Positions 31,235 to 45,023 are shown, numbered from the stretch's first letter. The stretch: DNA of 64,000 bases from an uncultured Scytonema sp. (GCA_937873135.1 CALMVQ010000362.1:1-64000); one strand, 5' to 3'. The notes: generated by a model from the letters alone, not told the origin. Translations and numbers: made by a program.

Positions 31235-31468
31235 AGTTTTTTTCACCCCAATTATTTTTGAATAATACCAATTTAATGCTTTGAACAACAAGTTACTATG
31301 AGCTAGCTCATACTTCCAAGGTAAAAAGAGCGTGATTCCGTTGGCGATACGGATGGCAGCCGTTGCCTTCTCTTCTCAGTTAATTCTTTGAATGCGACTG
31401 CAATAGCACTCGGGTCAACACCTTGGTTATGGTAAAGGTCCTTAGTATCAAAAATTGGTTGTATAAAG

Positions 31469-33491
31469 TCACCAAACTCCTTGGCTTTGCCGCTGTCTTA
31501 GTGCATCTAGAAACTGAATCACAAATCCCTCAAGCCTTCTATGTTTAATCGGCTCAATAAACTTATCAAACGGATTGAGTATTTTTATTTTTCCATCGGG
31601 TAGTGATTTATAATTTATTCCTTTTACTTGTTCTAGATATTTCAATGCCAACATCAAGCTAAAAGCATTAGGAATTTTACAGCTAGAACTCATGGATTCA
31701 TCTATACCCATAGCCAATAAAGAACGACGGAGAACGGTATCATCATCTCTGGAAACGTCGCTAAATCCAAAAGCATTCTCAGTGTTAGGTAAATTTCCTA
31801 ATGCTTCGCTTTCATTAATATTTTTACTGGTGCTGCATGTCAAGTATAATTTAGAGTTTTTCTCCAATATTTTTTCTAATTTTTGTTTGTATATTTCTTT
31901 ATCTGGTGTGTCTAAATCTTGAACTAAGCCGATAAATTGAGGTTGATATTTTTGGATTTCACCTACAACTTGCTTCAGGGTAGAAACAGTTAGTGAAGAT
32001 TTTTTATCTCCTTTTTTCTGCTCATGTTCGTATTTAATACCATCCGCATCAACTTCAACAACCACAATGCGATTGTCTTCTGGTTCATCGGGACGCGATC
32101 GCATCATCTGGTCATAGGCTTTTAACTCTAGAGGTTGTAACCAACCTAGATGACGCATCCCCAAAAAAGAAGAAGCTACCAGGAAAGTTGTCATCAGGGC
32201 AGTTTGAACTTTGGGAGTATCCCTGTGTCGCGATCCGAATTCATCACCCTTTGGAATTAAAAATTTGCCTAGAAATAGAATACCTGCTGCTGAGTTAATT
32301 TCTCGGAGAAGTAGCCAAATAACTGGTATACTACTAAGCCGCAAGTTTGATACAGGTGATTGGTGAGTATTACTGTGTGGAATTAAAGTTAGTGGTTTAC
32401 AAGCAGGATTTTGAAAAATTACAGGGAGCCAAGTAGCACAAGGAAAGTCACTCTCCATACCTTGTAAGCGTTCCCGTGCTTCTCGCACTGCTAGATACAA
32501 TGACTGACCACGACCAAAAGCCGTCAGAAAGTGCTTCAGAAATTCTTGGGCAACCAAATCTGGAATTGACTTTTGCATTACAATCATTTGGGGAATATTT
32601 ATTTCGCTTAATTCTGCGGCTAGTCCTAAACCATCGCAAGAGTTGAAAATTGCTAAGGAGAGTCCTTTTTCTATAGCTTTTGTGATAGCTAATTTTAAAT
32701 GTCCAATACTTAAGCTTTCGTTTTCATTAATTTTAATTGAACCTTTATTAGCATCATCCTGAGTGTGGCTATGTCCAGCAAAAAATAATATATCCCAGTT
32801 TTGTTCCCACAGCTTATCGTTGTAGTTGCTTCCGAGTCGTTTCTATTAAAAATTCAATCGTAGCATCTGGTAATTGCTCTTTTAATATTTTCTTGTCTTC
32901 TTCAATATCAATTTCCTTGCTGCCACCTCCCTTGCGATCGCCCAAAATCGCTAATATTTTTAGTTGACTTGTCGTCTCTTTATATACAACTTTCTTATAT
33001 TTGATTGGACTCAATGCTATTTCTGCGTTTTTCTAGCTTTGCGTTAATAATTTCCATGAATTCCAAGGCAAGTTTCGCAGCAAATTATTATCTGTTTGTA
33101 AGATAATTCTAATTTTTTCGTCAGGCTTGACTTCTGTTAAAAACTCTTCTTTAATATCCTTAAAAGGTTTTGATTCTAACCAATCATTTAAAGTTTCGCT
33201 TAACTTTTCTGCTGCTTGCTGACATTTATCTCTAGGATCGGGAATATAATCGCTACCTATTTGTTGTATCTCAGCAGATGCATGTTGTATGCGAGTGTTA
33301 TGGTTTGGAGCGCAATAAGAGTCATAGCTTTTTTTCCAGTGTTGATAGCTTTCCTCAACTTGGGGTGCGGGAGGTAGTGTACCGGAGACTCTTGTGCTAG
33401 CTTGTTCTCCTTCTTCTGCAATTTGCAATCTCACAGAAAATCCCTGCTTAAAATCGCCTTCCCCTAGCTCTAGGACAACTAACTTATTCAT
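31469..33491 (-). pseudogene. CHAT-CHASE2 fusion protein, broken
   Basis: Consecutive segments 33491-33033, 33014-32814 and 32820-31469 form one protein; in-frame TAG near 33033 (LLTQS*KNAEIALSPIKYKK) and frameshift near 32820 (RKQLQR* vs YNDKLWEQNWDILFFAGHS). Confidence 0.8.
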
Positions 33492-33849
33492 CGTTGTAAC
33501 TTTGGTGTAAATTGATTTGCCAGCACACTAGACTATCACTGAGCATCATCCCACATGAGAATTATGGCTGTAAAGCGATCTTAATCTTTTTGTAACAAAA
33601 ATATCTTGGCGAAGATATAGCTACTTGATTGATGGACAATTACTGAGTTGTTAATATTACCTTTAGAGAAAGGTAAAGCTAAAGTGCGATCGCATCTCAA
33701 ACGCTAGGGATTGAAGGTGCGATCGCGTAAGTAGGTACTATAATTTCAAGGTATGTAACGAAATGTAAATTTAGTTACAACTCTCTTCCCTTCTGCCTTC
33801 TGCCTTAGCTCAACGACAATTTTTCATGCCCACCTACTTATACGATAAA

Positions 33850-34840
33850 CTACTTGACAATAGCGCGATCGCGCTTATATACCCAAACTGCGCTCAATCC
33901 GAAAAATCCAAAAGCCCAAATTAACCACAGCAAATGTAAGATAACTCGTGGGCCAGAATTTGATTGCGCTATCGATAAAACCAATTCTTTATAGTGATAA
34001 AAAGGCGACAGGGAAACCAAGTCCTGCATTAACTCAGGCTTAAATGGTAATGGAACACCGCAAGCAAAGGGAATAATAAACAGAGATAAACTCAAAATTG
34101 AATCAGCACTTTTAGGATGGAGCAAATATCCGAGTTCCAAACCCAGAATTGCAAAAGGTGTAATCCCAATTATTAAACCGAGAAAAACAGATAGATATAA
34201 ACCCAAGCTTGCATGAATTCCTAATTGCCAATATCCCAAAATAAAAACTGAGAAGATAGCAACAGCGCAAACAATTAGTAAGCTAGTAATCTTGGCTGCT
34301 ATGTAAACGACAGGAGGTAGAGATGTGGTTTTTAATAACTTAAGCCATCCTTCCGAACGTTCGATCGCCACACGTTTACCCAGTCGTTCGATCACAATGG
34401 TAAACAAGATAATCCCACACAAATAAATTAACTGGTCTATGGTTACTTGTTCTGGTTGGAATCCTGGCTGTAATTTTAGTAATGGTACAAATCCGACAAT
34501 ACTTAACGTTCCTAGCAAAAATGTGGGTGTACGTCGCAATTGGGTTGTGGTAAGGGAACTCACTACAAATACTAAAAAAGCAGAAGTCATTTCCTCTCGT
34601 AACAAGGAAGAATGTAGCAACGATAGCAACTGCTACAATTCCAAGTAAAGCTGATTGACTGAAAGAAAATGGAAGTTTAGAAGATTTGACAGTTACAGAA
34701 ATTCTTTCCTCATCGTTACCTGTATTATTGAGTTGTTCATCGATAGTTTTAGAATTTTCGATTTCAGAATTAGACGAAGCTTGGGTTATATCTGAATATT
34801 TTTCCTGTTTTGATTTGTGAAATATGGGTTTCATTTGCAA
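33850..34840 (-). pseudogene. ABC-2-type permease, possibly frameshifted from an N-terminal segment
   Basis: ORF 33850-34629 is a multi-TM ABC-2 permease; ORF 34376-34840 supplies LPFSFSQSALLGIVAVAIVATFFLVTR that would continue into EEMTSAFLVFVVSSLTTTQLRRTPTFL near 34590. Confidence 0.55.
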
Positions 34841-34879
34841 AGTTACTCCTTAATTGAGAAGATTGAAGATTAGAAAGAA

Positions 34880-35329
34880 TTAAAACAATGTATTAACGGT
34901 TTTAGCAGCTAGCCATGCAAGCATCCCAAGTCCCGCAGCAATTGGTATGGGAACACCTAAAGCAGCTTCTTGATAACGCTCCTTTATGCCATTGTAGAGA
35001 AGACTTGCTAGCATGGGCCAAGTATCTACGATCGCATCGCATGTCTGCTCATCGAGATTACTTAATAACTCGTCAAAAATATGCTCAAAACTGGCAGCTA
35101 CCCAAGCAGAATTTTCGGTCCGAGGAATAATGTATACAACACAAGCAGTGTCTTCATCTATTGGGTATTCGCATTCAAGATAAGACTTGCTAGTCTCAAT
35201 CCCAATCTCATCTTCCCTAGAAGTTTTTCGTTGATCGATAAAAGATCGCATCGTAGTACCTTTGTATTTTATATGCGTCAATGGTAATTTTGATAAAGCG
35301 ATCGCACCTGTAATTTTTGGTGTGTGCAA
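34880..35329 (-). CDS. Hypothetical protein with C-terminal hydrophobic segment
   Basis: 149 aa (possible start at internal MRSFIDQRK); C-term VPIPIAAGLGMLAWLAAKTVNTLF. Confidence 0.5.
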   Translation of the reverse strand: MHTPKITGAIALSKLPLTHIKYKGTTMRSFIDQRKTSREDEIGIETSKSYLECEYPIDEDTACVVYIIPRTENSAWVAASFEHIFDELLSNLDEQTCDAIVDTWPMLASLLYNGIKERYQEAALGVPIPIAAGLGMLAWLAAKTVNTLF

Positions 35330-35362
35330 TGCGATCGCTTTTAGATATTGATATCGCTTGTC

Positions 35363-36292
35363 TTAATTGGCTTTTAGATATCGAAGGACGCTTGATTCTT
35401 TTCCGTTCCCAGTGTTGATTAATTTATAGAAATACATTGAAGAACCAGACCCTTCGTATGTAAGCGTAATCACTGAACCAACCTTTGCTCCAATTAAGTT
35501 GCTGTACCACACAAAGTATTGGTTGCCGTTTCTCGATTGAATCAATATTTTGTATGCAGCTTTCGCAGGGTCCCACCCGAATGCTTGAACCAAAGTAACA
35601 GGTGCTGATTCCACAGCATATGCAACCTCGGTAGTCAGTAGCAAAGAAGATGTTAATAGCATAATACGAATCATGGCAATGTAAATAAAAGTCTCCGAGG
35701 TTTCTGGTAGGCGTTCATAATCTTTGCTTAAGCGCCGACACCAATTCAGCCAACCAAAAGTTCGTTCTACAACCCAACGCTTAGGTAAATGGACAAAACC
35801 TTTTTTTTCCAAAGGTCGAAGAACAATTTCAACAATCCACCGAAACATATCCATTACCCATCGCATAAATTCTTCTCCCCGATATCCTCCATCCATCCAA
35901 ATGGTGTGCAGACGCTTTACCCGATTTCCCGTATCATGAACTCGTTTAAGGACTTGTCTAGCTCCTTGGCGCTCTGGAAGACTTGCAGATGTAACCAAAA
36001 CCCGTAAAACTAGTCCTAGTAAATCCACGGTTAAATGTCGTTTACGTCCGTGTATCTTTTTACCTACATCATAACCTACTTCTTGGGAAATCATCGTTGC
36101 TGTTTCTACTGATTGGCTATCTACTGCTGCCTCTGATGGGCTAGGTTCACGTCCGGCAGCTACTCTCACCCACTGGTAAAGTTTGTCGTGTACCTTTAAC
36201 AAGCGTGCCATCCTGACGCCATGCCCGGAAATAGCCATAGACTGTTGACCACGGTGGAAAATCTCCGGGCAATGCACGCCACGTACATCCAA
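35363..36292 (-). CDS. IS5 transposase ORF-B fused in frame to a small secreted protein
   Basis: Transposase C-term [15 protein letters not shown] runs directly into [54 protein letters not shown]... Confidence 0.7.
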
Positions 36293-36520
36293 GGCACAGT
36301 ACGTACAGAATCGCGTTCATTACAGCATACATTGCTGTAGTTCGAGGACGACCACCGGATTTTGCTTCGGGAAATAGGTCAGCGATTAATTCCCACTGTT
36401 CCCACGTTAGATCATTCGGGTATGATTTAGTCACTTGCGATACATCGTGCTGATGTCTACAAATTTCAGCATAAGCCTTGTGAGCTTTCTTACAATAGCC
36501 CCCCACTTTTAAAACATCCT
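35640..36520 (-). mobile_element. IS5-family element with two overlapping transposase frames
   Basis: ORF 36147-36506 (N-term) overlaps ORF 35363-36292 (DDE part: [42 protein letters not shown]) in another frame; similar ends agaagatgttaata / taagaggatgtttta. Confidence 0.75.
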
Positions 36521-36558
36521 CTTAGGAGCTGCAATCATGAATTCATGGAAAGCATCAC

Positions 36559-36915
36559 CTATTCAAACAGAATTTTGCGAATGCGGAATTTATTTTTCAT
36601 CGCAATGACAATTTTGCCATCCAATAAATCTTCTGAGTGTAATTTCAGCGCATCCATCAACAATGTTTTTCTCTGTTCACGAGGTAAATTCTCTAATCTT
36701 AAAATCCCGCAATGGCTTTTTCTCTGTTGCCAGATCATCTGTTCAAAATCATTATCTGTTGTCACGATAATTCTGCCTGATACTACTGCCCAGTCTAAAA
36801 TCTTCTCATCTGACATTTGAGGATCAGTATCCGTCACGTAAATCACATCATGACCCATTTGTTTTAACCAATCTCCCAGAGTCCGACTAGCATTAACATC
36901 AATTAAGAATTTCAT
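36559..36915 (-). CDS. DUF5615 PIN-like toxin
   Basis: 118 aa; MKFLIDVNASRTLGDWLKQMGHDVIYVTD...DEKILDWAVVSGRIIVTTDNDF. Confidence 0.9.
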   Translation of the reverse strand: MKFLIDVNASRTLGDWLKQMGHDVIYVTDTDPQMSDEKILDWAVVSGRIIVTTDNDFEQMIWQQRKSHCGILRLENLPREQRKTLLMDALKLHSEDLLDGKIVIAMKNKFRIRKILFE

Positions 36916-36922
36916 AAATAGT

Positions 36923-37174
36923 TTAAGACGCAGCCAATCTGTCTAAAACTTCTTCTTGAGAGACTAGTGAATAAGCATAGAACAAAGCTGCTTGTATATC
37001 TTCTGTTTCTAATTCCGGATAATCTTCTAAGATTTCTTGTTGACTAGCACCTTTTGCTAGTAGCTCTAAAATCATCGCTACTGATATTCTTAGACCTCGA
37101 ATGATTGGTTTTCCTCCTAAAACGTTTTTGTCAAATGTAATTCTTTCTAGTAAATTAATATGGTTCATACTCAT
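36923..37174 (-). CDS. DUF433 antitoxin
   Basis: 83 aa; ITFDKNVLGGKPIIRGLRISVAMILELLAKGASQQEILEDYPELETEDIQAALFYA; adjacent to DUF5615 toxin. Confidence 0.92.
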   Translation of the reverse strand: MSMNHINLLERITFDKNVLGGKPIIRGLRISVAMILELLAKGASQQEILEDYPELETEDIQAALFYAYSLVSQEEVLDRLAAS

Positions 37175-37595
37175 TAACTAACACAATAGTCAACATTCTA
37201 ACTTTAATTAAGAGGAAATAGGGAACTCTTAGCAGGGAGCCAAAACTTTGATAGTTTACGAAATGCCATAGAGCATGTACTACATTTAGTGTCCTAACCA
37301 ATCTGGCTACTGCTATAAAAGCAAACTACCACTTGAGAAAGCCTCATTGCGGCACAAATACCCCAATGCAGTTTGGAATGCTGCTGATTATTGAGATGAT
37401 GCTCCACTAACAGCAAATTACAAACCAAATCGCATTGAAATCTACTATGCCGATAATGCCGATACCCCCCACATCCAGAGTGAAAATGCTGAGGTGCAGT
37501 ACATCAACTTACCGCCAGACATGGGACAGTCCCAGGTGATTCAAGGAAAGGATTGATGGCCCTTCAGTAAATCTCAGCAGATCAACAAAGAGGTA

Positions 37596-38192
37596 TTACA
37601 CATTAGAGAGCTTAAAAACTCCGCCGTTGCTAACAGGAAGGTTGTAGGTAGTTTGGTCAAGTCCAACTCCGGATGGGTTATCATCTAAAGTTCTGAAGAA
37701 GGTTCCGCGCTGTTCAGGGTTAACTAACAGAGTTGCTGTGTCTGATCCTGAGAGGGAGGACAAGAAGATTTCGACATATCCACGAGCTTCAAAGTTTGCC
37801 TCTTTAAGCATCTCAGGTCGGTTAATAAAGTCAGGCTGCAACACAAGTAAGCTAGTAGCATTTTCAGGAATGGTGAAGGTCAGTCGCGCTTTGTTGTTCT
37901 GTGGAACAATTTCTGGAACCAGTGTTGCTTGAGGATTATTTGGGAAAATATTCTGCCCTGAAATATCAACAGCATCAATGAATTCATCAAATGATGTAGG
38001 ACGTTCTGAAGGGTCATCCAGCTCAGTAGGAAATTTGATTGTAAAGACTAGAGATACGGTGACAGGGAAGAAATTAACGTTGGCGATCGTCAGAAAGTAG
38101 CCTTGAATTGCTGTTCGGCTAATTGCATCAAACCCACCAGGAATTCTTGGAAATTGAGGCTTAAGCAGAACTTCAAAAGTAGAAACAAGCAT
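37596..38192 (-). CDS. Hypothetical protein
   Basis: 198 aa coherent ORF, beta-rich appearance. Confidence 0.55.
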   Translation of the reverse strand: MLVSTFEVLLKPQFPRIPGGFDAISRTAIQGYFLTIANVNFFPVTVSLVFTIKFPTELDDPSERPTSFDEFIDAVDISGQNIFPNNPQATLVPEIVPQNNKARLTFTIPENATSLLVLQPDFINRPEMLKEANFEARGYVEIFLSSLSGSDTATLLVNPEQRGTFFRTLDDNPSGVGLDQTTYNLPVSNGGVFKLSNV

Positions 38193-38349
38193 GTTTTTTG
38201 GTTCTCAATCGACTTATGAACTACTTTTAATATATGTAGACGCTATCAACTTATGCACTAACGGACTGAGTACGTGAACCCGTTAGACTTATAGTGCTCA
38301 AACGGGACGAGTCGCACTACCGAGTATGAAGTATAAATGCTTATTAAGC

Positions 38350-38459
38350 TTAGGTATTACTTATGGGAATTAAACTTTCACAGTCGATAGTTCCAACAGC
38401 AATCGGTTCCAAACAGTATAAAATACTACGTTTTACTATGTCCGGGTTGTACAAATCAT
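38350..38459 (-). pseudogene. tniQ/tnsD-like 5' fragment
   Basis: Minus-strand reading RSILYCLEPIAVGTIDCESLI resembles the TniQ N-terminus; start ATG overlaps the tnsC-like stop (ATGA), then frame slip and truncation. Confidence 0.55.
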
Positions 38460-39085
38460 AATGGGGATATGTTAATTTGTCTCTCTGCATTTTCTGTCCC
38501 TATTGAATCTCGTGTAGGCTTGCGAATTCCCACCGATTTCTTCCGTTTTTTTGGCTGAATGACTTGAGATTTTGAATCAGAATTTAAACTGTAATTTTGT
38601 TTGGATATAGGTGGACAACGTAAACCTAAGTCTTGATATAACTCTTCAATTTTGCCTTCAATTGAAGCATATCTAGCTTCTCCTTCTTTAATATGTTTGA
38701 GAATATTTCGACATTGACCAACTGATAAAGCTCTTTTTTCTAAATGCTTAAGCATCACAGTAGAAGCATTTTCGTTTAATGCCTCTGCCAGAGCATTTCT
38801 AGACCAATTTTTGAGGATACCAACACATCCCAAACTACGTGAATATAGGTATTCCCAATGTGATAAAAAGTCTGGAGGCTCTCTTGTTGGTATTTGACAC
38901 TGAAAATTCCAGATTATGCTCTGCCAAATTTCTCTATCTTCTGTAAATTCAGCATTATAACGGGGAAGATGAATATAAATACTACGTCTACTTAATTGGT
39001 CTCCTACATCATGAAGGGTTAGTAAATCATAAGTGCCAATTAATCCATGTAAAACTTGAGTAATATTGGCTAAAGATTTGAGTAA
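38456..39085 (-). pseudogene. tnsC/tniB-like AAA ATPase, 3' portion only
   Basis: In-frame reading LLKSLANITQVLHGLIGTYDLLTLHDVGDQLSRRSIYIHLPRYNAEF...PPDFLSHWEYLYSRSLGCVGILKNWSRNALAEAL...; Walker motifs absent. Confidence 0.75.
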
Positions 39086-39089
39086 TTAT

Positions 39090-39218
39090 TACACCTAGAT
39101 TACGCCCTGATGCTGAAACATACTGAATTTTAAAAGGAGGTGGTTGGTCGTAATATTCTAAAACATCAGATCTATGTTCCAACTGATATATAAAAGGAAG
39201 TTCTACTTTGTGAGATTC
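39090..39218 (-). pseudogene. tnsA-like internal fragment
   Basis: Minus-strand ESHKVELPFIYQLEHRSDVLEYYDQPPPFKIQYVSASGRNLGVI, a TnsA_N-type motif block; continues from N-terminal part at 44792-44616. Confidence 0.75.
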
Positions 39219-39282
39219 AAAAAAAGTAATACAAAAAATAAATAAACAACAACAACAACAGCGAAAGATTTTTGTTACGTTA

Positions 39283-40407
39283 TTGAAAAATAGAACAATA
39301 CATTTTAAAACTGTCTATAACGTAACCATGAATTTGACATTGCAAAAAGGCATTGATCCTTTTTCGGGAAAAACTATATGGGTGATGTTGGATGCAGATT
39401 ACCAAGTGGTGGAACCTATCCAACAGTACCTGACCTATTTATGCGGAACTAAATCTCCCAAAACGGTCGAAACATATGGATATGGATTGAAAGCATGGTG
39501 GGAATTCTTATCACTGAGGCAATTAGACTGGACAAAAGTTGAACTATCGGATCTCGAAGAGTTTGCCTATTGGTTGCGCGTTGGAGATTTCCATAAAATC
39601 GTCTCAATGCAACCCGTACAAGCTTTGCGTTCAGAGCGTACTATCAATCTCGTAATTACTGTGGTAAAAACTTTTTACGAGTATCACATTGCTGCTAAAA
39701 ATATCGATTACCAACAATTTGATAAAGTTTTGGCGACGACCAGTAGAACTCGTAGGGGTTTACTAGCTGGCATCGCCAAATCAAAGCCAACAAGACAAAA
39801 ACTTGTCAAACTTAAAGAACCAAAAAAATTCCCTGGATGCTTGAGTGACGAACAGATAGAGACGCTAGTTAAAGCCTGCCATCGCCTGAGAGATAAATTA
39901 ATCATCTTGATGCTGAATAGTACGGGAATGAGAAAAGGAGAATTGTTGGGGCTATGCCATCAAGATATAGGAGATTTTGACAACCACACGATTAGAGTAG
40001 TACAAAGACCGAATAACCCTAATGGTGCAAGAGCTAAAGGAGTTGAAAGGGTAATTCCTGTCCTGCAAGAATTACTGCAACTCTACAACGAGTACTTGAT
40101 TCACGAATACCCAGAAGTGGAATCAGACTATGTATTCGTCAATATTTGGTCAGGAGAAATCGGGATGCCAATGAACCCTACGGTTCTAAACACCATGTTT
40201 TCTCGATTGTCTTTAAAAACCGGAATAAAAGTTTACCCGCATCTGCTACGCCATTGCTATGCAACCCGTCTTCTAAAATCTGGTATGAGCGCAGATAGGG
40301 TCAGACATCTGTTAGGACACACTTCGGTTCAGACAACGTTAGATGTATATTCTCACGTGGTCAACGAGAAAGATTTATTAAAAGTAGTCAGACAAGAGGA
40401 GGAATAA
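39283..40407 (+). CDS. Tyrosine recombinase (TnpA-like)
   Basis: 374 aa; TGMRKGELLGL, HLLRHCYATRLLKSG, LLGHTSVQTTLDVYSH (R-HxxR-H-Y); start codon position uncertain, ATG at 39328 is an alternative. Confidence 0.93.
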   Translation: MKNRTIHFKTVYNVTMNLTLQKGIDPFSGKTIWVMLDADYQVVEPIQQYLTYLCGTKSPKTVETYGYGLKAWWEFLSLRQLDWTKVELSDLEEFAYWLRVGDFHKIVSMQPVQALRSERTINLVITVVKTFYEYHIAAKNIDYQQFDKVLATTSRTRRGLLAGIAKSKPTRQKLVKLKEPKKFPGCLSDEQIETLVKACHRLRDKLIILMLNSTGMRKGELLGLCHQDIGDFDNHTIRVVQRPNNPNGARAKGVERVIPVLQELLQLYNEYLIHEYPEVESDYVFVNIWSGEIGMPMNPTVLNTMFSRLSLKTGIKVYPHLLRHCYATRLLKSGMSADRVRHLLGHTSVQTTLDVYSHVVNEKDLLKVVRQEEE

Positions 40408-40409
40408 GA

Positions 40410-41873
40410 ATGGGTGAAATAAAAGAAATTAAAACTGCTCAAGCTATAATTCAAAATAAAGAATCCTTACATCTTTTAGCCAATCCTATATTCCAAAAGG
40501 ATACTTGGCATACTATAGATGATTTGGGATTATCTGTTAACCTACATAGAAGAAGATTAACTTTAGACTTTCAGGGAATTTTACAGGATTGGTTAAGAAT
40601 CTTAGTAAAAATTTATATATTAGTCAGAAGTCAATTAAATTTATCTTCTGAATATCTAGCCCATGAACTTAGTAATCTTAATAAGTTTTCTCGATTTTTA
40701 GAAATTAGCTCAATCAACGGTCATGAGCAAATCAATAATCAAGTGTTTCAGGATTTTGATGATTATCTTCATAAACTTAACTTAGCTAAAAGAACAATTT
40801 CTAAACATTACATAACCTTAAATAGTTTTTTTAATGTATGCCGATTAGAAGGTTGGTTAGATATTAATACTTATTGGTTTGAAGGAAGACGCTTACCTTA
40901 CAGATTTATCAGCAATGATGAAATTGACTATATTCCTGAAGAAGTCTGGAATCAATTAGAGCAAAATTTACATCATCTTCCTGAATCGATACAGAGAATG
41001 GTATTAATTATCCGAACTACAGGGATGAGAGTTGGAGAGCTTCTTAATCTGCCACTTGATTGTCTAAGAAAACGAGGTGGTCAATGGCGTTTACGTTTTA
41101 CTACTGAGAAGTATAAGATAGACGACGAGTTGCCTATCTTACCCGAATTAGTAGTGATTATCAAACAACAGCAAACATACATAAGAAAACATTTAAAAGA
41201 TAATTATGATAAATTATTTTGTAGTAGTCGTGGCAACAGGCACGGTTTTATGCCTACCTCAAGAGTCATGAATGTTAGTACCTTTAATTGTTATTTAAAT
41301 AAATTAGCTAGCTCATGTCATATTTGTACTCATTCGGGGGAAATCTGGCATTTTAAATCTCATCAATTCAGGAAGACTATCGGCACAGTTCTTACTAATG
41401 CGGGAGTGAGAGATTTAATTATCCAAAAATATCTAAGACATCGCTCCCCTGATATGCAACGTCATTATACTCACCTACTTAAACAAGTTTTAGAATCTGA
41501 ATATAAAGACTTAATGAGAGAAAAATCTTATGTTGATATTACTGGGAGAGTAGTTGCCAATTATAAACCTAGAAATCCGATGACCGAGCTAATGCGCCGC
41601 AAGATGTATCAGATTACAACACAGTATGGTGAGTGCCACCGCCCGACAATTAAAATACCCTGTCAAACAGTAAATGCTTGTTGGCAATGTGAACATTGGC
41701 GTACTTCAACTGATGATTTACCTTATCTTGAGGAAGATATAAAGCAAATACAAGAAGAACTTAATATTACTGAAAAGCTGGGTTTGGTTAGACAGCAACA
41801 GGGATTAGAGAATGATTTTCAAAATTTGAAAGTGAGGATAGAAGGATTAAGAGGAATAGATGAACAAAATTAA
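40410..41873 (+). CDS. Tyrosine recombinase (TnpB-like)
   Basis: 487 aa; TTGMRVGELLNL, SHQFRKTIGTVL, RHRSPDMQRHYTH; Cys-containing C-terminal region. Confidence 0.92.
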   Translation: MGEIKEIKTAQAIIQNKESLHLLANPIFQKDTWHTIDDLGLSVNLHRRRLTLDFQGILQDWLRILVKIYILVRSQLNLSSEYLAHELSNLNKFSRFLEISSINGHEQINNQVFQDFDDYLHKLNLAKRTISKHYITLNSFFNVCRLEGWLDINTYWFEGRRLPYRFISNDEIDYIPEEVWNQLEQNLHHLPESIQRMVLIIRTTGMRVGELLNLPLDCLRKRGGQWRLRFTTEKYKIDDELPILPELVVIIKQQQTYIRKHLKDNYDKLFCSSRGNRHGFMPTSRVMNVSTFNCYLNKLASSCHICTHSGEIWHFKSHQFRKTIGTVLTNAGVRDLIIQKYLRHRSPDMQRHYTHLLKQVLESEYKDLMREKSYVDITGRVVANYKPRNPMTELMRRKMYQITTQYGECHRPTIKIPCQTVNACWQCEHWRTSTDDLPYLEEDIKQIQEELNITEKLGLVRQQQGLENDFQNLKVRIEGLRGIDEQN

Positions 41874-43644
41874 TTGGAGGCAAGATTATCGGAGAGAGTT
41901 TGTATGTCCAGCTTGCTCACATAGCGGGATGAACTTAGCTGGAAAATACAAATACAAACAGCTTTTTCGTTGTCCAAACTGTGGTAAGCATGAAGGACAA
42001 TTTTATACCTTTAAATCTTATGAGTTTAGGTCAACAGTTAACTGGCGCAGAGATTACAAAGTTGGTGAATTTGCTTGCCCTAATCCTAATTGTGATGTTC
42101 AAAATGTAGTTCCAATTGGACGGAACTCTAACAAACAAGAGTTTATCTGCCAAGTTTGTAAAACTACAGCCTTTGAATCAATTGATCTTAGTAACAGAGT
42201 TGTTAGTCGCCTTAGTGGAAATCCAACTGCTATTAAACCGTTTAAATTTGAGGATGATGTCTGGGACTTAAGAGCAATTAATGTTAATGTTAGACCAGGA
42301 ATCGCTCAGTATAGCATTACCTTTAGTAAAGTCAAGCAAAGTTGGTTAAAAAATTTAGTAAAACAATATATTTATGATTTATGTAAAGCCGAAAAATCTT
42401 GTTCGATGGTCAATCAACGTTTACTGGGATTACGTTATTTCTCTCATTATCTTGATGAGAAAAATATTAACGCTCTTGACAAAATAAATCGAGATATTAT
42501 CCATGATTTCCTCAATTGGTTATCTGGTCAAAAAGTAGGAAGAACTGCTTTGAGAGATCGGCTAGGTGATTTGAGAAGTTTTTTCAATTTTGGCTGGGTC
42601 AAAGGACTCTTTAATGTCAATCAAGATATTATCCGTGATGAAGATTTTCCCAAAGTTCATAAAAAAAATATAGAATGTATTTGTCTAAGTGTTCGAGAAA
42701 AAATCGAGCAGAACTTACATTTACTTCCAGAATCCATTGCTCGAATGTGGATTGTAGCTTTCTTTACTGCCATGCGTCCTAATGAATTAGCCTTGTTGAA
42801 AAAAGATTGTTTAATTCAAGAAGGCGAACAATGGAAAATTATTTGGCAACGACAAAAAACAAATGATTGGCATGAAGTTCCCGTTACTAGAACTATTGCG
42901 AAAATCGTTAGAGAACAGTTTGAATATATTCAACAGCTTTTTGGAGAACAATGGGATTATCTTTTCTGCCATTATCAAGGAATATCTCAAACAGATCCAT
43001 CACATCCAAAACTGAAACCTGTCAAAAAAATCATTCCCGTTGATAGCCCTTTATACAAAGCTATTAATTGTTTGATAAAGCATCTCGATATTCGAGATGA
43101 AAATGACTTCTTAGCTAAATTTAGCCCTAAATTACTACGGACTACTCGATTAACCCAACTTTTTGAACAAGGACATGACCTAGCTGTCGTGAGTTCCTGG
43201 GCTGGACATAAACATTTAGCTACCACCAGTACTTACTACACTCATGTTAGTTGCTCCCTGATAGAAAAAGAAGCAGGACACATACAGAAAGCTTTATTCA
43301 ACGTTGATGGTAAACCTCTTTACTACGAATCCATGCCTAAAAGCTTTTGGGAAAATCCTACCGCCCATCAATTAGAACTTGCTGGTAATCATATCAACAC
43401 GCCTATCTATGGATATTGCGGCTTACCCTTGAACCAACGTTGTGACAAATTTAGAGCCTGCTATACCTGCTCTCACTTTGTAGCTACACCCGAAAAACTG
43501 TCCCAGTACATTCAAGTCCGCAATGAACTTAGAGCTAAAGAAACTAGAGCTTTTACTAATGGGCATGACGTGCTTGTCGAACAATTCGGACAACAAGCTG
43601 ACCTGCTAGACAAGATTATCGTATCATTACAGGAGGTGGCATAA
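41860..43644 (+). CDS. Third tyrosine recombinase with N-terminal zinc-ribbon-like repeats
   Basis: 594 aa; CPACSHSG...CPNCGKHEG...CPNPNCD...CQVCK; catalytic region FTAMRPNELALLKKD, KLLRTTRLTQLF, WAGHKHLATTSTYYTHV. Confidence 0.9.
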   Translation: MNKINWRQDYRREFVCPACSHSGMNLAGKYKYKQLFRCPNCGKHEGQFYTFKSYEFRSTVNWRRDYKVGEFACPNPNCDVQNVVPIGRNSNKQEFICQVCKTTAFESIDLSNRVVSRLSGNPTAIKPFKFEDDVWDLRAINVNVRPGIAQYSITFSKVKQSWLKNLVKQYIYDLCKAEKSCSMVNQRLLGLRYFSHYLDEKNINALDKINRDIIHDFLNWLSGQKVGRTALRDRLGDLRSFFNFGWVKGLFNVNQDIIRDEDFPKVHKKNIECICLSVREKIEQNLHLLPESIARMWIVAFFTAMRPNELALLKKDCLIQEGEQWKIIWQRQKTNDWHEVPVTRTIAKIVREQFEYIQQLFGEQWDYLFCHYQGISQTDPSHPKLKPVKKIIPVDSPLYKAINCLIKHLDIRDENDFLAKFSPKLLRTTRLTQLFEQGHDLAVVSSWAGHKHLATTSTYYTHVSCSLIEKEAGHIQKALFNVDGKPLYYESMPKSFWENPTAHQLELAGNHINTPIYGYCGLPLNQRCDKFRACYTCSHFVATPEKLSQYIQVRNELRAKETRAFTNGHDVLVEQFGQQADLLDKIIVSLQEVA

Positions 43645-43646
43645 CG

Positions 43647-44540
43647 ATGGGCACAGAACAAACTAGGGAAGCTCGGATTAAAACCCTAACACAAACTCAG
43701 TTAGTCCGAAAACTTGAAACCCTAGAAAAAGTTAACTTTGCTATTGAGCGACTCCAAAAACTAGGGGTTAAGGTTAACTTTCGCACTGTTGCTAGAGAGG
43801 CGTCAGTTAGCGTTCAATACCTTTATAAATATTCAGATCTCAAAGAGCGTATCCACAACATTAGAACGCAGCAAACTCAAATATCATCTGTTCCTGTCAA
43901 TCAGCCACATGTGACAGCTAAAGCTCATTCTCAGTTTGTTAGCCGTCTCAAACAGAGAATCCAACAATTAGAACTTGAGAATAATGAACTTAAGCGAAAA
44001 AATGAAGCTCTCGCTGGGCAAGTTTATCGGGTACATTCTTTGCAAGAGCAAGTCGAGCGACAAAAGGATATGATTGGCTCTCTCGAATCTCGTTTGAAAC
44101 AGACAATAGAAGCTTTTCAACAATCTAAAGTTGTTCCTCTTACTAGTCCGTCAAAATCTCAGATTAGTGAGCAAGTATTGATTCAATTGGAAGCGGTCGG
44201 AATTCGGTTAAATTCCACATTAAGCAAGATAATTAAGTCGTCTTCAGAAGAAAAAGTTCTAGATGCCATTAATGCTTACAAAGAAGCTCTCGCCACAGGT
44301 AATATCGAACGACCTGGAGGATGGTTGAAAAAAGCGATACAGTTCGGTTGGAAGCCGAATGACTCGGTGCAAGCTAAATCTGAATTAGAAATTTTTAATC
44401 AATGGTTTCCATTAGCTAGTAATAAAGGATTAGTCATGGCCAGTCAACAAACCCAAAATGGTATTGTAGTGTTTACCAATCATGGCGATTGGATATCATT
44501 TGTAGAAATGTTATCCAAATATCCGTTAGAAACTCTCTAA
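43647..44540 (+). CDS. DUF6262 / TnpC-like coiled-coil transposition protein
   Basis: 297 aa; N-term helical region FRTVAREASVSVQYLYKYSDLKERI then long coiled coil; last gene of recombinase operon. Confidence 0.75.
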   Translation: MGTEQTREARIKTLTQTQLVRKLETLEKVNFAIERLQKLGVKVNFRTVAREASVSVQYLYKYSDLKERIHNIRTQQTQISSVPVNQPHVTAKAHSQFVSRLKQRIQQLELENNELKRKNEALAGQVYRVHSLQEQVERQKDMIGSLESRLKQTIEAFQQSKVVPLTSPSKSQISEQVLIQLEAVGIRLNSTLSKIIKSSSEEKVLDAINAYKEALATGNIERPGGWLKKAIQFGWKPNDSVQAKSELEIFNQWFPLASNKGLVMASQQTQNGIVVFTNHGDWISFVEMLSKYPLETL

Positions 44541-44615
44541 ATTCTCGTTGTAGAAAACGTAAACAATGAAAAAAGCTTTGCTCAGTATACGTTGTAAGCG
44601 TTATGTATTACATAA

Positions 44616-44792
44616 CTCGAACTGAATAGTTTGACCCATTTTTTCACTACAATAATTCCCACAAACATTGCCATAATTCCCTTGTACTCGGCGAGATGGT
44701 GGTACTTGGCGAATCTGAGCTATAAGAGAGCGGGTACTTTGGGCAAGTCTTTTTTGACTGCACCATTGGTCAAACTCTTCTTCTGTGAGCAT
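44616..44792 (-). pseudogene. tnsA-like 5' fragment
   Basis: MLTEEEFDQWCSQKRLAQSTRSLIAQIRQVPPSRRVQGNYGNVCGNYCSEKMGQTIQFE then element-derived LCNT*. Confidence 0.75.
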
Positions 44793-44836
44793 TGATTGGT
44801 TAGAGTTTGGAACTTCAATTTAGTTTACCGGATTTG

Positions 44837-44962
44837 TGTCCATTTTCTTCTGACATTTTGGGATTATGTCCATTTTCTTCTGACAAAATTCCGCTCGCTG
44901 TATTAATTCCTTAACGAAGTTATAGGTCTTTCAGCTTACGATCTGTCCAATTTCTTCTGACA
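44837..44962. repeat. Tn7-like transposon end: three 19-bp repeats
   Basis: TGTCCATTTTCTTCTGACA at 44837-44855 and 44867-44885, TGTCCAATTTCTTCTGACA at 44944-44962; outermost copy ends ...TGACA (5'-TGTCA on minus). Confidence 0.8.
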
Positions 44963-45023
44963 AACCTGGCCAAAATCTTCTTCAAGTCACAGGCACAAAG
45001 GAGAGATAAAACTCCGCCCCTAT

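Follow-up and report, generated by a model that had tools for sequence, protein, structure and literature searches.

Among Tn7-like elements of the TnsAB-fusion type are the CRISPR-guided transposons that today serve to insert genes. The described systems that come closest to the element reported here are GInt, SE, Tn554 and TnsF/Tsy. GInt has four essential genes, three of them coding for integrases, and is characterized by 6-nt staggered cuts, imperfect direct repeats and circles (PMC5385486). For SE and Tn554, 6 bp of a donor site travel with the element to its next position (PMC10214605), and the TnsF/Tsy layout combines N-terminal zinc fingers with a tyrosine-recombinase domain (PMC10293859). 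In the open-licence literature searched, neither tnsA nor tnsB turned up as the target of an element of this kind. The element that we describe is of the already known Tn554/GInt/Tsy kind, but its tnsA/tnsB target seems unreported in the literature searched, and target and outcome together seem not to have been described before.

The DNA analysed (the window) is a stretch of 64,000 nucleotides from an uncultured Scytonema sp. We consider it likely that it contains a Tn554/GInt-type element, site-specific for the sequence TTYGAR of tnsA, which by recombination between element copies now joins the start of one Tn7-like transposon (A) to the tail of another (B). The features of the locus are the following (A and B mark the lineage to which each remnant is assigned):

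31340-44991, no strand: 13.6-kb island including all parts, absent at the same locus in the congener G001
38338-38362, minus: stretch of 25 nt in tniQ, AAGTAATACCTAAGCTTAATAAGCA, with 76% likeness to the R1-side end, possibly the scar left by the end of a second element
38366-38490, minus: tniQ, N-terminal part, lineage B, 71% amino acid identity to the TniQ of L049
38456-39079, minus: tnsC, C-terminal part, lineage B, 81-83% (DNA) and 85% (amino acids) to L047/L049
39080-39215, minus: tnsA, C-half, lineage B
39216-39221, minus: 6-bp core, R1 side, TTTGAA, Phe-Glu on the coding strand (plus strand TTCAAA)
39222-39233, plus: R1-side end AAAAGTAATACA, followed by a conserved AAACAACAACAAC tract, kept in relatives
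39328-40407, plus: R1, TnpA-like tyrosine recombinase, about 359 aa, 37% to Tn554-family TnpA (E=7e-79)
40410-41873, plus: R2, TnpB-like tyrosine recombinase, 487 aa, R-H-R-H-Y complete (TnpB, E=5e-40)
41860-43644, plus: R3, large TnpB-like tyrosine recombinase, 594 aa (Pfam Phage_integrase, 5.9e-15; TnpB, E=3e-24)
43647-44540, plus: D4, DUF6262/TnpC-like accessory protein, 297 aa (Pfam PF19776, 6.6e-10)
44604-44615, plus: D4-side end TGTATTACATAA, conserved in at least seven family members
44616-44621, minus: 6-bp core, D4 side, TTCGAG, Phe-Glu on the coding strand (plus strand CTCGAA)
44622-44792, minus: tnsA(B), N-half, codons 1-57, lineage A
44834-44855, 44864-44885 and 44941-44962, minus: three TGTCAGAAGAAAWTGGACA repeats found by repeat search, putative TnsB sites
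44965-44991, minus: end of Tn7-like transposon A, TGTGACTTGAAGAAGATTTTGGCCAGG, beginning with base 44991 and differing at one position from the 29-bp terminal inverted repeat of L046

The insert extends from 39222 to 44615 (5,394 bp) and has four plus-strand genes. An earlier note on this DNA had described four recombinase-type genes between the tnsA pieces; the four genes are there and three code for recombinases, but the fourth, D4, is a TnpC/DUF6262 protein, 34% to the Tn554-family TnpC, which itself scores as DUF6262. In an alignment of R1 with nine relatives, the R-H-R-H-Y residues are invariant. R3 has N-terminal zinc ribbons, as judged from a zinc-domain match, and a Lys in place of the His of HxxR. 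With TnpA-, TnpB- and TnpC-type genes in one operon, the insert is, as far as its sequence tells, a tyrosine-recombinase transposon of the Tn554/GInt type, R1 being TnpA-like, R2 and R3 TnpB-like and D4 TnpC-like. The element terminates 75 bp past D4. Longer family members have a complete dnaB-type replicative helicase gene directly after D4 (L035, 6444-7766, among others).

Like GInt (ginABCD; Bardaji et al., 2017, PMC5385486), the element combines three tyrosine recombinases, all in the same direction, with a small fourth protein, and it has imperfect direct repeats, a 6-nt exchange, site specificity and one recombinase deviating from the canonical catalytic residues, a likeness drawn from the published description of GInt. 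Unlike GInt, which carries cargo after ginD and an AT-rich 3′ end and targets the ends of host genes, the window copy is without cargo (relatives have dnaB) and lies in a conserved motif of a transposase gene. Tn554 has counterparts of R1 (its TnpA), R2/R3 (TnpB) and D4 (TnpC) and likewise produces no simple target duplication, but it has no second TnpB-like recombinase, its TnpC is of 121 aa against 297 in D4, and its target is radC instead of tnsA/tnsB. As to Tsy/TnsF (Faure et al., 2023, PMC10293859), shared traits are a tyrosine recombinase, a zinc-finger tyrosine recombinase and an accessory protein, as well as insertion into the codons of a conserved catalytic motif (Walker B of comM for Tsy). 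Tsy elements are defined by a YRec, an HTH protein and a TnsF-like protein inserted in comM; here the target is tnsAB, there is no GIY-YIG nuclease, the accessory protein belongs to DUF6262 and R3 is TnsF-like in layout only. That layout, N-terminal zinc fingers plus a tyrosine-recombinase domain (PMC10293859), could be read to mean that the recombinases are TnsF-like target selectors of the Tn7-like element itself and not a separate element. TnsF is, however, an inactive recombinase located within the Tn7-like operon, whereas the genes of the insert lie on the strand opposite to tnsAB, are bounded by their own ends and cores and code in R1 and R2 for complete catalytic residues; moreover, the same module is found in tnpB, in a group II intron reverse transcriptase gene and in other genes without a Tn7 core. 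We therefore rejected the TnsF-type explanation, which we find hardly credible, on account of these ends and of the other hosts.

Relatives in many cyanobacteria share the D4-side end, and their R1-side end is close to WAAAGYAATACA or TTATNTNATACA and is again followed by the AAACAACAACAAC tract. The two cores of the window differ only at two wobble positions, and the same holds for the core versions TTCGAG, TTTGAA and TTTGAG overall, whose differences are confined to wobble bases; in L035, TTCGAG stands at the R1 side. In genomes with several copies, the 6 bp outside the ends vary while the ends stay fixed, as in Calothrix PCC 7716 (CTTTGG and GTTTGG; L131/L148) and in C. parasitica (GGTGTG, GGTGCG and AATGCG; L135/L136/L138). 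Insertion is hence site-specific: it involves a core of about 6 bp in two versions and does not simply duplicate the target, as in Tn554 and GInt.

The host of the insert is an eroded Tn7-like core, in which tnsA with the nested tyrosine-recombinase element is followed by remnants of tnsC and tniQ. The earlier note is correct on this structure in outline, but not on its origin. The two tnsA pieces that it had recognized on the minus strand (44792-44616 and 39218-39090) lie at those places and are N- and C-portions of one block conserved in dozens of cyanobacterial TnsA/TnsAB proteins. They match in their own genome with E=8e-36 and 5e-25, and once joined they match 30 of 100 relatives with up to 71% identity (E=8e-45) and 51 plasmids, mostly annotated as 'TnsA endonuclease N-terminal domain'. 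Whereas BLAST-type comparison supports the TnsA_N-like character proposed for the joined block, the Pfam TnsA_N model matches neither the spliced block nor any sequence across the whole genome, which is a limit of that model. The tnsC C-terminus and the tniQ start are likewise where they had been placed, with matches in L047/L049 and in L049, respectively. As for a tnsB gene, previously taken as lost, intact homologues are TnsAB fusions of about 910 aa followed by tnsC and tniQ. The intact relatives L046 and L051 have the TnsAB fusion, TnsC and TniQ, while the window has only remnants of each. L051 TnsAB aligns end to end with the solved PDB chain 9bw1_M (860 aa, E=0, 1121 bits), which we take to be the TnsAB of AvCAST (type I-B1, CAST I-B1). 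The window copy is hence of the same host gene family as the TnsAB-fusion Tn7-like transposons, in the form of a broken chimera. Since the host gene is a fusion, no separate tnsB is missing; instead, one deletion has fused the region around codon 102 of tnsA with the C-terminal half of tnsC, at about 39080. Close relatives (L047 and L049) have deletions that are similar to that of the window yet different.

In L049 (G023:C36, 2901-5645), an internal deletion leaves one 915-aa frame that runs from TnsA through the beginning of TnsB into TnsC, the greater part of which is kept; the deletion in L047 is of the same kind, but different. Elsewhere in the genome of the window, an N-terminal piece of tnsA has survived in degraded form, interrupted by two stops (L003/L045, G000:C156, 3790-3954). 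Inspection of the ORFs adjoining the window copy revealed no cas genes.

The intact relative L046 (805-5758) has 29-bp inverted ends and a 5-bp duplication, CTTGA. The segment 44616-44991 is 79% identical in DNA to L046 over 376 bp, through the transposon end. The Tn7-like end is at 44991, and not at 44962 as first thought. The three TGTCAGAAGAAAWTGGACA repeats next to it are probable TnsB binding sites. Repeat and pattern scans of the window revealed no second Tn7-like end.

The insertion falls in the Phe-Glu codons of TIQFESH, and no other invariant stretch of TnsA is longer than this motif. Besides the window, three divergent tnsA genes from two other genomes (L034, L036/L037 and L038) show the junction CARTTYGAR|TTATGTARTACA, one of them in G049 (L034) and two different ones in G039 (C128 and C131); in G039:C205, the matching other element end is joined to a tnsA C-half. 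By describing the insertion merely as a split of tnsA, the earlier note had missed this recurrent, sequence-specific target. The N-half of the window shares 42-53% identity with the other three interrupted N-halves, two of which are close to intact genes (L034 to L027, 86%; L036 to L023, 76%), the best for L038 being 54%. Taking into account this divergence and the nearness of L034 and L036 to intact genes, the tnsA insertions look like separate events, and not like a single inherited one. TTYGAR (Phe-Glu) of TIQFESH thus appears to be the attachment site in TnsAB-fusion transposons of the AvCAST type. No further exact junction was found in 391 sampled genomes of the order; matches with one mismatch in other genomes were set aside, as a reversed control pattern was about as frequent. 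The tnsA-targeting clade is known from three genomes only, of which two or more are drafts. The tnsA elements of the window and G039 are sisters in the R1 tree (96/82), and the tnsB element lies elsewhere. In the D4 tree, the window pairs with G049 (99/98), and the G039 tnsA element groups with Calothrix L148 nearby and is not placed tightly with that pair. From the G049 element (L034), only D4 and one end are present; the place of R1-R3 is occupied by an IS-type transposase gene and other genes (G049:C10, 7642-9349).

In 9bw1, the Glu located five codons downstream of the insertion site is replaced by Ala (HRVELP to HRVALP; VEL to VAL), as is the Asp of HIDHT; these two would be catalytic residues of TnsA and TnsB, respectively. 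We had considered the Glu of FES as the TnsA catalytic residue, and dropped it because the residue replaced in 9bw1 is the Glu five codons on.

The earlier reading that a simple insertion split one tnsA, under which the halves would differ through uneven divergence only, agrees with the in-frame joining of the halves at TIQFE^SHK, but it conflicts with the comparison of each half with intact genes. The N-half is 80% identical in amino acids to L004 and 51% to L005/L007; the C-half is 93/90% identical to L005/L007 and 55% to L004. DNA follows the same pattern, the segment 39218-38366 being 81-87% identical to L047/L049 and its tnsA part 85-87% up to the deletion point. As the switch from lineage A to lineage B occurs at the insertion codons, we regard a single split gene as very improbable. 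The two halves derive, on the evidence of these alignments, from two different tnsAB genes, one (A) providing the N-half and the transposon end, and the other (B) the C-half, tnsC and tniQ.

The most probable account is that Tn7-like transposons are parasitised by a site-specific element and that the chimera was left when two of its copies, one in A and one in B, recombined. The A and B transposons would have stood side by side, each with an element copy at the same codons, and homologous recombination between these copies, the simplest route, would have deleted the intervening DNA. The chimera could alternatively be an assembly error or be older than the insertion. Two tnsAB genes might have recombined at TIQFESH, or the element recombinases might have acted on the sites of two transposons: the breakpoint falls both on the recombinase core and in the best conserved stretch, and only a single element copy is present in the genome. 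Such a history would require, however, that breakpoint and target coincide by chance, or else that different attL and attR sites recombined between molecules, a reaction that to our knowledge has not been described for the family. We consider this explanation rather unlikely. Misjoining of two element-bearing loci through the repeat is improbable. The assembly is a draft of 383 contigs, in which a 5.4-kb repeat can mislead short-read assembly, but it is 98% complete and contains no other good tnsAB half, the complementary C-half of A and N-half of B not being found elsewhere in it. Furthermore, the flanks of the locus are neighbours in congeners: window positions 31332 and 44996 lie within about 140 bp of each other in G001 (L208), and the segment 31340-44991 is therefore a local island.

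By analogy with GInt, SE and Tn554, the four proteins of the element would act all together on a circular intermediate. Strand exchange would take place across the 6-bp core at the element ends (R1 side WAAAGTAATACA; D4 side TGTATTACATAA), so that each insertion would keep two core versions, that of the target and that of the donor; the predicted circle junction is TGTATTACATAA-6 bp-AAAGTAATACA. The insertion cuts tnsAB ahead of every predicted TnsA catalytic residue, and the host transposon should therefore be off. Exact excision would restore the tnsA frame, because both cores read Phe-Glu; this reversibility is putative, and some GInt and SE elements do not restore the empty site.

Targets of the family extend beyond tnsA. 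In G039:C205, the same tnsAB gene carries a second, separate family element whose core lies just before the HIDHT of TnsB. With both flanks available (L124, 10361-19387), another element is inserted in tnpB, just after the RuvC Asp of AGFDF^G (OrfB_IS605 and TNB domains). With one flank, elements are found in a group II intron reverse transcriptase gene (L128, 1-2793; RVT_1 and GIIM), in a CoiA-like gene (L130), in sigma-70 region 2 with a weak match (L137) and, by eye, in a TnpB-like gene at WIGVDR without a Pfam match (L132, 1-1177); the other family targets are without a Pfam domain. An alignment search of viral contigs with R1 gave one distant recombinase only, and a single pattern match in these contigs, L219, was rejected as unrelated DNA. 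These targets suggest that the family prefers conserved motifs of mobile-element enzymes. We propose tentatively, as a view that may well prove wrong, that this cyanobacterial transposon family consists of parasites of other mobile elements, in which each lineage would recognise the DNA of a conserved, often catalytic enzyme motif (TIQFESH of TnsA, HIDHT of TnsB, the RuvC Asp of TnpB, group II intron reverse transcriptase), disable its host on entry, perhaps restore it on exit and reshuffle hosts by recombination between copies. A natural, recurrent and codon-precise parasite of a transposase gene would be one limit on Tn7-like transposons of the TnsAB-fusion type. The element also offers recombinases with a new, defined target, a testable case of mobile-element parasitism and a route to joining the halves of two transposases.

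Within the island, tniQ breaks at about 38365, and the 25 nt resembling the R1-side end come next. The motif AAGTAATAC occurs in the window only there and at 39224, and the likeness is equalled by about 0.0005 of 90-nt Markov shuffles; as a lead only, these 25 nt may be the scar of another element. On visual inspection, two adjoining small genes at 36559-37174 (118 and 83 aa) resemble a DUF5615/DUF433 toxin-antitoxin pair. At 35363-36506, the island also includes an IS5-type transposase in two frames, one of them fused to an unrelated C-terminus.
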